Source of the DNA: Candidatus Saccharimonadota bacterium | Lineage (GTDB): Bacteria > Patescibacteriota > Saccharimonadia > Saccharimonadales > AWTP1-31 | Length of the DNA: 49,858 nt | Assembly (NCBI GenBank): GCA_003962975.1 | Contig: RXKC01000005.1 | Coordinates: 1,660-51,517, forward strand | Reading direction: 5' to 3' | In this document: one piece after another, positions 3,015-7,458 of the stretch | Position numbering within the stretch: position 1 is the stretch's first letter | Layout: each line of letters starts with the position of its first letter | Made by a program: the position numbers and the translations under genes | The notes under the pieces: generated by a model | Databases searched by the model: none | The model's input: the letters and a program-made list of their open reading frames with translations, nothing else | Told to the model about the DNA's origin: nothing

Positions 3015-3182
3015 ATGAATAAAAGCCAAGTTATCAATGTCGACGAAAATAGTCCTGAGTTTCTGCTTGAGCTGGAACGACGCGTTAAACTTGCTAAAAA
3101 TCCTAAAAACCGTGTGCCACTAAGTCAAGCCAAAAAGGATATTCTAAAGAAGTATCGGGAGCTGGCGGGTGCAAAAGTATAG
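3015..3182 (+). CDS. small antitoxin of a RelE/ParE-type module
   Basis: A 55-residue acidic/basic mixed protein beginning MNKSQVINVDENSPEF. Its gene overlaps the following toxin gene by 14 nt, the usual arrangement for a type II antitoxin placed upstream of its RelE/ParE partner. No DNA-binding fold is obvious from the short sequence, so the role is inferred mainly from context. The protein would bind and neutralise the toxin and may autoregulate the operon. The ATG follows a -10-like TAAAAT by 6 nt. Confidence 0.6.
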   Translation: MNKSQVINVDENSPEFLLELERRVKLAKNPKNRVPLSQAKKDILKKYRELAGAKV

Positions 3183-3510
3183 CGTCAACCTTACTGAAGA
3201 CGCCGAAAATGACATTGCCGAATTAATGGCTTTCTACGAAGAACTGGTAGATACAGAATCTGCTACAAAGTTTTTTGACGAAGCCATGGAAACTTTGGCA
3301 AACTTGCAAAGTTTGCCACGAGCCAGAGCTGTATTCAAAGACAATCCCGATATATATCGGGTTCAAATGGAAAAACACAAAGTTGCGATCGTCTACCTCG
3401 TCGATGATGGTCGACTTGAGGTTATAGCAATTCGCGCTTATCACCAAATGCAAGACCCAGCGCAGTATCAAGAATCGGTACGAGAGCGCATACGCAAGTT
3501 GCGTGGGTAG
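3169..3510 (+). CDS. RelE/ParE-family toxin
   Basis: A 113-residue protein with the RelE/ParE layout: two N-terminal helices with Asp/Glu-rich turns (TEDAENDIAELMAFYEEL), then a beta-sheet segment IYRVQMEKHKVAIVYLVDDG and the characteristic closing strand EVIAIRAYHQ. Length fits the family (about 90-115). It starts at a GTG inside the antitoxin gene, a 14-nt overlap that suggests translational coupling. RelE-type members cleave ribosome-bound mRNA and ParE-type members inhibit gyrase; the sequence does not decide between them. It sits directly upstream of the DGR target gene and may stabilise this accessory segment. Confidence 0.75.
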   Translation: MQKYSVNLTEDAENDIAELMAFYEELVDTESATKFFDEAMETLANLQSLPRARAVFKDNPDIYRVQMEKHKVAIVYLVDDGRLEVIAIRAYHQMQDPAQYQESVRERIRKLRG

Positions 3511-3584: not shown

Positions 3585-5756
3585 ATGCCAGTAGAAAATC
3601 CTGATCCAACTTCACCCCAACTGCCAAATGAGCCCACTGAACTGGGCCAACCGATTGATGAGTGGCAACAGCTTGCTCGTGAAGCTCACGAAGGGTGGGA
3701 TATGGATCACCCCGGTGTCGCCGCTTTATATGAGCATCACGTGGCACCCAGACTGCAAAACGATAGTGCCGGTCAGCCAGCGCCGACTGGTGAAGAACGA
3801 GCTGGTGGCCGTTTTTTGCATAAACACGGTAGTGTTGACTCGAAAGAAGTTGAACAGGTCGTTGGTTATCTGCGTTCAAACGGCGAAACAGTCCCCGATA
3901 AAGCGGGCGATCGTACCGCTCATTACTTGAACTTTATGGCCGAGGCCGTCAATGATGGGATCTTAACCGGTGACCCAGATAGTGTGAGACGTCAAATTGA
4001 TGCACATGTCATTAAGACCGAAGATGTGCCGGAGAGCTATTTTGCCTTGCAACGCCGTATTGCACGAGAGCAAGGGCATGGTGATATTGAAATTACCCCA
4101 GACATGAAACGTCAACTGATTGAGGCTGCACAGGCAGATCAACGAGGCAGTTTAGATAAGTGGGTAGAGTATCTAGGTGGAGACGACGGAAGCTATCCTA
4201 ATTGGTTTAAGCGGTACGCCTGGGACTCCGTACTGAAACTAGGAGCCTATGATAAAGAAAAAGCTAAGTTTGATCGTCGCGACAACACTACGGTGGCTGC
4301 CTACCCTGAACTTAACCGTGAAGCCCTCGCCTACGCCTATGACACGGTAAAGAAGTTCCATGTCCTCGGTGAGACGGTAGATGAGCCACAGCTTACGCAG
4401 ATCCTCAAAGAAGGCAGTTTTGGTAGACTATATGCTCATGCCATTATGGAGGTTACGCCGGATTCACTAGAGAGCCGAAACGAAGTACGTGGCTCATGGA
4501 CGCTCTTTAACCAAACGACTGACCCGCGTACCGCTCGACGACTCAGTGGTTCTCTACAAGGTCACGGAACTGGCTGGTGTACGGCCGGCGAAAGTACAGC
4601 CGAAGCACAGCTTCAAGGTGGAGACTTTTACGTCTACTACACCCGAGACGAAGATGGCAAAGACACCATTCCTCGTGTGGCGGTTCGTATGCAAGCTGGT
4701 GAGGTGGCTGAGGTTCGTGGGGTACTGCCGAGCCAAGAACTTGAACCGATCATGGCAGATATTACCAGTGAACGACTCCAAGGCTTGCCTGGTGGCGAAC
4801 GATACATCCAGCGTGCTACTGACATGAAGCGACTCACGGCGCTTGATGGCAAACTGCAAAAAGATCCGAATACGCCACTAAGTAAAGAGGATTTACTCTT
4901 CCTATACGAGTTTGACCGTAACATCGAAGGCTTCGGCTATGATCGTGACCCCCGCATTGCAGAAATACGGTCTAAGCGTGGTGAACGCGATCTCCCTGAG
5001 ATTGCTGCCATGCTACCAGAGGTTCTAGCAAGCCAAGGAGCCGCAAGCTATTCAGCATATTATGAGATTGCGGGAGCCACTGGAGCAGAAGCGATTAGTG
5101 AGCTACAGTTCCGACACTTACTAGAGACACAGATGACTGAGTGGTCAACCAACGGGGTTATGGATTACGTCGTTCGTGACTTTATCGAAAGTGGCAATAA
5201 GCCCAACCTATTAGCTACCCCTAATGTGACTGCTAGCTGGCAGACATTACGCGCTATGGCCACCAAGTTCGGAGAGAGCCAGCCGTACGAAACGTACATC
5301 TACGAAGAGTTATACAGTCAATACACTGCTGAAGAATTATCCGGCCAACCGACAGGCGGAGCTCTTCGGTTTAGTATCATGCCATCTGGTGATACAAAGC
5401 AGCTAGGTTACGCACCCGTCAATGATCAGTTGACGGCACTGCGACGCATGCAGGCAGATCAGCCTAGACTAAACGCGCGAGTGCCAAGTGTTCTGGATGC
5501 ACTTACCTTCTGGCAGACCTTACGTGCCCGAGGTGATGCCCTCGTTGGTAGTGGAGTTTTTGAGAAAACAATTATTAGACACTTTGATCTTGCTGCTAAG
5601 CGCCTTGGTGGCTGGTCGGACGTGCCGTACTCGTTTGTGCTTGACGATGGCCGGCCCGCTTCGGCACTTCGGCTTCCGAGAATGACGACCATGCTCGCGT
5701 CCTGGTGGGGTAAAAACTTTATCTTTGCTCCTTCTTCTTTTTCCTTCTCCTTTTAA
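3585..5756 (+). CDS. DGR target protein with C-terminal variable region (frameshifted tail)
   Basis: A 723-residue protein and the presumed diversified product of the DGR. There is no signal peptide or membrane segment. The body holds a conserved-looking GTGWCTAGE motif at about 325-333 followed by GGDFYVYYTRDEDG, a core I do not assign to a named family. From residue 673 (RLGGWSDVPYSFV) the gene is the VR, matching the TR except at template adenines. A one-base loss near 5659 shifts the frame at about residue 692. Without it, the frame would end HARVLVG with a TAA at 5711-5713, just past the VR. The current frame runs on through pyrimidine-rich DNA to a Ser/Phe tail. Such VR-bearing C-termini form ligand-binding C-type-lectin-like surfaces in characterised DGRs. 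Confidence 0.8.
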   Translation: MPVENPDPTSPQLPNEPTELGQPIDEWQQLAREAHEGWDMDHPGVAALYEHHVAPRLQNDSAGQPAPTGEERAGGRFLHKHGSVDSKEVEQVVGYLRSNGETVPDKAGDRTAHYLNFMAEAVNDGILTGDPDSVRRQIDAHVIKTEDVPESYFALQRRIAREQGHGDIEITPDMKRQLIEAAQADQRGSLDKWVEYLGGDDGSYPNWFKRYAWDSVLKLGAYDKEKAKFDRRDNTTVAAYPELNREALAYAYDTVKKFHVLGETVDEPQLTQILKEGSFGRLYAHAIMEVTPDSLESRNEVRGSWTLFNQTTDPRTARRLSGSLQGHGTGWCTAGESTAEAQLQGGDFYVYYTRDEDGKDTIPRVAVRMQAGEVAEVRGVLPSQELEPIMADITSERLQGLPGGERYIQRATDMKRLTALDGKLQKDPNTPLSKEDLLFLYEFDRNIEGFGYDRDPRIAEIRSKRGERDLPEIAAMLPEVLASQGAASYSAYYEIAGATGAEAISELQFRHLLETQMTEWSTNGVMDYVVRDFIESGNKPNLLATPNVTASWQTLRAMATKFGESQPYETYIYEELYSQYTAEELSGQPTGGALRFSIMPSGDTKQLGYAPVNDQLTALRRMQADQPRLNARVPSVLDALTFWQTLRARGDALVGSGVFEKTIIRHFDLAAKRLGGWSDVPYSFVLDDGRPASALRLPRMTTMLASWWGKNFIFAPSSFSFSF
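5601..5710 (+). repeat. DGR variable repeat (VR)
   Basis: Aligned with 6018-6128, this segment is identical at every non-adenine template position. Twelve of the 18 template adenines between 6036 and 6091 are substituted: 6036 G, 6045 T, 6052 T, 6057 C, 6058 T, 6069 C, 6070 G, 6075 G, 6081 G, 6082 G, 6085 C, 6091 C. One adenine (6075 or 6076) is missing and five are unchanged. The 34 nt at 5674-5707 are identical to the template and would contain the initiation-of-mutagenic-homing site. A6126 is G at 5708, the only difference beyond that core. Adenine-specific change is the hallmark of DGR mutagenic retrohoming. Confidence 0.95.
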
Positions 5757-5890
5757 TGCCAGCAACCCTAAGCTTTGCTAAAATAGGTCGCAAGAGGTAA
5801 GGAATCCAAGTTGTGCTTTTTAGCGCTCATCGGTGCCTCGCTGATTGCTTGTAGGCATAGAGTCAAATATATCCTAGAGTAATATGTTTG

Positions 5891-6061
5891 ATGTCTGCAC
5901 AACAAAAACCTTTCAATCCCCACGTTATAGCCACTCAGAGTTCGCGGATTAGCGGGCTGAAAAAAGAAAAGAAGCAGTTGATGCGTCAACTGTGGAAGGA
6001 ACTGAGTGATGTACGAGCGCCTTGGTGGCTGGTCGAACGTGCCGAACTCGTATGTGAATGA
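5891..6061 (+). CDS. possible small ORF running into the template repeat
   Basis: A 56-residue frame beginning MSAQQKPFNPHVIA, rich in Lys/Gln/Arg, without a stop until TGA at 6059-6061. Its last 44 nt lie inside the TR, read in a different frame from the one the target uses. No homologue is recognised and no clear Shine-Dalgarno sequence precedes it. It could be a real accessory peptide, a decayed gene, or simply the leader of the TR RNA. DGR template RNAs usually include a non-coding flank next to the TR. Confidence 0.3.
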   Translation: MSAQQKPFNPHVIATQSSRISGLKKEKKQLMRQLWKELSDVRAPWWLVERAELVCE

Positions 6062-6128
6062 CGATGGCAAGCCCAACTTCAACAATTCGGATTCCGAGAA
6101 TGACGACCATGCTCGCGTCCTGGTGAGG
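6018..6128 (+). repeat. DGR template repeat (TR)
   Basis: Donor copy of the VR. Read in the target frame it encodes an Asn-rich stretch (RLGGWSNVPNSYVNDDGKPN and on through NFNNSDSENDDHARVLVR), with AAC/AAT codons at the sites that vary, exactly as adenine-directed mutagenesis requires. It lies 0.3 kb downstream of the target and upstream of the RT on the same strand. It is the RNA template for error-prone reverse transcription. The avd-like gene on the other strand ends 17 nt past its 3' edge. Confidence 0.95.
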
Positions 6129-6144: not shown

Positions 6145-6460
6145 CTAGACACTTTTGCGCCAACCGCCAATTTGACGACGAGCTTCAACAAGCTTAGCTT
6201 GTAGCTTTAGTGCATTGGTCTCGTTGACTAAGTTAAGTTCCAGAATTGCACGCAGATTGAGTGCCGTAAACTCAGCATGGGTATCGGCCGCTATAAGGTA
6301 GGTAGCTTTATGGCTCTTCGGTGCATGCTTGGCTAAGATAAGTTGTTTGAGTGTCTCACCACAACTGGCTACCGTAGGCTCGCCCAGGGTGTGACGGTAC
6401 TTTTTATCTATGGTTGTGCTTAGGGTGGCTAGTTTCTTATATACTTCGTACGTAACTGTA

Positions 6461-6480
<20 letters not shown>
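6145..6480 (-). CDS. avd: Avd-like DGR accessory protein (four-helix bundle)
   Basis: A 111-residue helical protein with features of the bAvd/S23-like four-helix family: KKYRHTLGE near the first helix turn, long amphipathic helices, and an ending RRQIGGWRKS with the GGW seen in Avd proteins. Avd forms a pentamer that binds nucleic acid and the RT and is needed for mutagenic homing in the Bordetella phage system. The start at 6480 (MEELSVITVTYEV) is chosen over the ATG at 6612, because the longer frame would overlap the RT N-terminus and has no Avd-like extension. Unusually it faces away from the RT: the two 5' ends overlap by 20 nt on opposite strands. Confidence 0.75.

Positions 6481-7458
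<978 letters not shown>

Follow-up and report, generated by a model that had tools for sequence, protein, structure and literature searches.

The closest described counterparts of the locus reported here are the Avd-containing diversity-generating retroelements (DGRs) of Bordetella phage BPP-1 and of the Vibrio phage VHML type, with which it has in common the RT fold (8UB7), the GxxIGNLTSQ and YxDD motifs, Avd, and adenine-specific change between TR and VR at the 3' end of the target. How DGRs are turned on and off is largely an open question in the field. A Quimbyvirus phage DGR has been described whose RT is encoded in three frames and for which programmed frameshifts were proposed (Benler et al. 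2021, PMC8008677). The locus analysed here lies in a stretch of 49,858 nucleotides (the window) and is a DGR in a Saccharibacteria-like Patescibacterium.

The retroelement of the window

VR (5599..5710, plus strand) and TR (6016..6128, plus strand) are direct repeats located 417-418 nt apart that differ only at template adenines, and the VR-TR-RT spacing is common to the window and its relatives. The preliminary description reported adenine-specific divergence, and a position-by-position comparison over TR 6036-6091 reproduced its counts exactly: 12 of 18 adenines are substituted and one is missing, while none of the 38 other positions is changed. The probability that 12 random substitutions would all land on adenine is 3e-8. 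An additional A to G change at 6126, near the 3' end, was absent from that list and may be an IMH/IMH* difference. It was also overlooked that the missing VR adenine is a 1-nt deletion, which throws the last part of the target ORF out of frame.

The target gene (3585..5756, plus strand) carries VR at its 3' end and encodes 723 aa as it stands. The deletion swaps the family ending ...ARVLVG* (TAA 5711-5713) for an unrelated tail; the homologous targets of loci L073, L071 and L130, which are intact and 55-58% identical to the window target, terminate at the VR end, in the position of this TAA. Profile and structure searches with the target recovered no Pfam family and no PDB match, and a structure prediction looking for a C-type-lectin or Ig-like fold gave a model of low confidence (pLDDT 51). 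A ParE-like toxin (PF05016) at 3169-3510 adjoins the target upstream.

The avd gene (6145..6480, minus strand; 111 aa, ATG at 6480) lies head to head with rt, which is on the plus strand, an arrangement of strands that had not been mentioned. The 5' ends of the two genes share a 20-nt overlap, ATGACCGACAATTCTTCCAT at 6461-6480. The assignment of this gene as Avd-like is borne out by a match to bAvd (PF22296; E 5.5e-6), whose 27 bits lie below the curated cut-off of 40. The N-terminal half of rt (6461..7066, plus strand) contains the RT motifs up to motif 3 and runs for 201 aa to a stop introduced by a frameshift; it matches RVT_1 (E 1.2e-7) and is 70-74% identical to Saccharibacteria RTs. The C-terminal half (7042..7458, plus strand), recovered in another frame as a tblastn chain, contains GIPIGNLTSQ (motif 4), YGDD (7150-7161) and the thumb, so that the motifs of a DGR-type RT are present as had been claimed, with the catalytic half out of frame.

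Between motifs 3 and 4 lies an (AGCC)14 tract (6987..7043, plus strand; TRF 14.2 copies, 100% match), the sole simple sequence repeat (SSR) of the whole window. It shifts the frame, so RT reading ends at 7066 and the catalytic half is not read. A separate lesion, an in-frame TAA in the C-terminal half (7231..7233, plus strand), is beyond repair by any tract length. The window RT is hence no continuous ORF, and neither interruption had been recorded. The closest relative, L066, whose N-terminal RT half is 70% identical to that of the window, carries an in-frame (AGCC)12 in the corresponding position. The model of its RT (pLDDT 89.5) finds its best PDB match in 8UB7, a DGR ribonucleoprotein RT (TM 0.77), and the linker encoded by the repeat is a loop of low confidence (pLDDT 55-62).

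We propose that (AGCC)14 is a slippage switch whose present length would set the frame to OFF. The window copy is OFF and is probably decaying, since two further lesions, the TAA at 7231 and the VR deletion, accompany the out-of-frame tract. The preliminary description had called this a textbook DGR. The assignment to a patescibacterial DGR holds, with respect to the adenine-specific VR/TR divergence as well as to the Avd-like gene and the DGR-type RT; the word "textbook" does not fit, as the RT is out of frame and carries a TAA and the target is frameshifted in VR. For the same reasons a textbook active DGR was rejected for the window allele, from which ongoing VR diversification is not expected. 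A match was found in none of six close relatives from the same family. Viral carriage was rejected, the viral scans having returned a single related contig (IMGVR 3300033402_000781).

Repeat tracts in rt and avd of relatives

We compared rt with the RTs of the same order and of 66 loci from named Patescibacteria, among them Saccharibacteria, Peregrinibacteria, Peribacteria, Berkelbacteria, Nomurabacteria, Uhrbacteria and Magasanikbacteria; these are metagenome assemblies with one genome per species, in which tract lengths may be inaccurate. The loop before RT motif 4 contains repeats of AGAC, AGTC, AGCC, AAGC, GA, TC, CA or G, and in other relatives AC or CT repeats occupy another RT loop, which precedes the first by about 50 codons. 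Several RTs that lack a long tract show a short one in the corresponding position (G7 in L069, short GA in L079 and L116, C8 in L118), and about 20 of the 68 group A systems have no tract. Contigs L067 and L121 terminate within the repeat, as would happen with a tract of variable length or one too long for the assembly to resolve.

The putative tract-based switch arose repeatedly in patescibacterial DGRs. On a tree of 60 RTs, the presence of an SSR changes at least 14 times and the type of unit at least 25 times, counts that are rough because this is a quick tree with many open forks. Sister RTs differ in tract length or state: L104 has (GA)12 out of frame and L112 (GA)7 in frame, and L113 has (TC)15 out of frame where L110 retains a short remnant in frame.

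SSRs are concentrated in rt. At fixed thresholds, 66 kb of RT sequence holds 39 of them and 653 kb of flanks six; at stricter thresholds the counts are 37 and 11. Under the stricter thresholds the RT repeats comprise 24 dinucleotide, eight tetranucleotide and five mononucleotide tracts and no trinucleotide tract in the 66 kb, and the 653 kb of flanks contain no di- or tetranucleotide tract at all. No SSR was found in 11 phage DGR loci. The window's own genome has five tracts in about 316 kb, three of them within DGR loci.

In a second set of RTs (group B), which emerged when 380 genomes from the phylum were sampled, the tract is placed within the RT loops or else 3-46 nt past the start of the divergent avd. 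The avd tracts consist of C8-13, CA, CT, GA or the 5-nt unit AGGAC, and products of tract-bearing avd genes match bAvd (8.8e-12 for L151, 1.2e-7 for L160). A hand count limited to ATG starts finds the frame kept in about 13 of these avd genes and broken in 28. Among 74 group B systems the SSR is in avd in 39, in rt in 18, in neither in 17 and in both in none (p 6e-8); a script counted 36, 18 and 17 of 71, and manual inspection reassigned or added L154, L191, L208, L174 and L179. Since L162-L181 were picked for short RT frames, the share of rt is inflated, a bias that does not account for the lack of overlap.

The genome of the window encodes three further DGRs (L010, C12:1-1775; L011, C16:1-2700; L012, C31:1-2420). 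Their RTs are of another type, with GIAIGNL(T/I)SQ and YVDD and with TR downstream of RT; their VRs are 92-96% adenine-specific, and their targets, judged by eye, resemble FISUMP-like surface proteins. All three sit at the ends of contigs, which may mean that VRs interrupt assembly. Between RT and TR, a G tract (G7 at about 1400 in L010, G8 at 2256-2263 in L011, G9 at 1985-1993 in L012) stands directly before TACAATA, and by its position next to what is possibly a -10 box (TACAAT) it could switch TR transcription as well. Tracts of G9-G11 directly before TACAATA or TACTATA also occur at L237 (8540-8548) and L245 (619-627), both in the same genome, and at L068 (about 7095), and we regard these as candidate phase-variable promoters; the genes downstream of the L237 and L245 tracts have a start that resembles a signal peptide and code for a repeat-rich surface protein. 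In L108, whose rt contains a G13 tract, the next gene downstream has a G10 tract (about 7059) close to its start.

A proposed switch and its alternatives

We consider it probable, from comparison of the sequences, that rt of the DGR locus is a contingency locus switched by tract slippage. Within the loop that separates RT motifs 3 and 4, replication slippage would lengthen or shorten the tract; its units of 4 nt are not divisible by three, so every such change shifts the frame. With the tract in frame, it would form a flexible linker in a full RT and adenine-specific mutagenic homing would run; with the tract out of frame, translation would end before motif 4 and YGDD, and with the RT truncated homing would stop and the current VR would be retained. 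An equivalent switch elsewhere would use different units at the two RT loops, or the 5' end of avd. We infer that slippage takes place in living cells, that homing is lost when the gene is out of frame, and that switching confers an advantage.

For 34 SSR-bearing RTs the assemblies cover both halves; eight of these are in frame (ON) and 26 out (OFF). Frames 0, 1 and 2 are represented by 8, 9 and 17 RTs, which is compatible with one third in each, a random distribution not being rejected (p 0.12). Broken frames are found in 26 of 34 SSR-bearing versus none of 20 SSR-free RTs (p 1e-8), the SSR-free list omitting L076, which has one internal stop. Out-of-frame RTs appear as ORFs of about 150-240 aa, which suggests that many such systems would escape surveys that accept an RT only at 250-550 aa, as the DGR survey by Roux et al. 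2021 (PMC8144416) did.

One alternative is that the broken RTs are pseudogenes and the repeats a neutral expansion in dead genes. The three lesions of the window copy, the TGA of L085 and the internal stop of the tract-less L076 are what decay would produce; yet the 26 OFF RTs break at the tract, and both halves are otherwise open in all except two, the window and L085, whose TGA lies outside the tract. Nor does the downstream half evolve as dead sequence would: in OFF pairs at site b with unsaturated dS (dS is saturated in all pairs containing the window), dN/dS of the out-of-frame half is 0.07-0.14, similar to the upstream half and to intact RTs. Individual values for this half are 0.095 for L117/L119, 0.104 for L114/L120 and 0.074 for L117/L120; L074/L097 gives 0.192, and the intact pair L075/L080 gives 0.083. 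VR/TR mismatches fall on a template adenine in 97% of cases in OFF, 97% in ON and 96% in SSR-free systems, so the adenine specificity of broken systems equals that of intact ones. Together, low dN/dS in both halves and adenine-specific VRs indicate that these genes are in frame often enough for selection and function. The repeated reuse of the same two loops and the existence of in-frame sister genes (L112 versus L104, L092 versus L117 and L119) likewise speak against decay, and we hold this explanation to be improbable.

No better in our judgement, and similarly improbable, is programmed slippage at the repeat, whether ribosomal or transcriptional, which would yield full RT from any allele, as was proposed for the frameshifted DGR RT of Quimbyvirus (PMC8008677). 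It would account for selection on both halves and for recent VR activity in OFF alleles. It does not readily accommodate tracts that occupy all three phases and are built from many unrelated units, or the systems in which the tract is in avd rather than rt; moreover, no tetranucleotide repeat is known as a slippery site. That the tracts are assembly artefacts is very improbable: the genomes are metagenome bins and two contigs (L067, L121) end in a tract, but the tracts occur at the same codons in dozens of assemblies from different assemblers and places, in clean flanks where hardly any such tract occurs over 6 kb, even if exact lengths may still err.

Phase variation by tract slippage is therefore the simplest account, as pseudogenes, programmed frameshifting and assembly error each explain less. 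In a broader form, which we think likely with slightly less assurance than for rt of this locus, targeted hypermutation would be phase-variable across Patescibacteria, through slippage in rt (two loops) or in avd (5' end) and never in both, giving mixed populations of diversifying and locked cells. If so, the bacteria of a large phylum, tiny and for the most part symbiotic, hold a mutation engine under a heritable random switch, by which part of the cells would explore protein variants and others would retain a good one, and DGR regulation becomes testable using existing reads.

Comparison with known systems

In the open literature that was searched, no paper links a DGR rt or avd with simple repeats, slippage or phase variation, and the proposed control of an essential DGR gene by a slippery repeat is, relative to that literature, apparently new. 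The Quimbyvirus DGR resembles the systems described here in having a frameshift-interrupted RT together with an active-looking VR. Unlike for the patescibacterial rt, this was explained by programmed frameshifts, and a simple repeat is not mentioned in the part of that paper considered here (PMC8008677).

In contrast to the DGRs of BPP-1 and the VHML type, the patescibacterial rt or avd holds a frame-breaking SSR, of which the 11 phage DGRs have none. The patescibacterial avd, moreover, stands head to head with rt on the opposite strand, and the systems are cellular rather than phage-borne.

With the contingency genes of Neisseria, Haemophilus and Campylobacter, such as mod with its tetranucleotide repeats, these loci share a non-triplet repeat in the coding sequence (units of 1, 2 or 4 nt in rt of relatives), a mixture of in-frame and out-of-frame relatives, and conservation of both halves, with dN/dS of about 0.1 in each. 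Unlike in those genes, what would be switched in Patescibacteria is the engine of targeted hypermutation itself.
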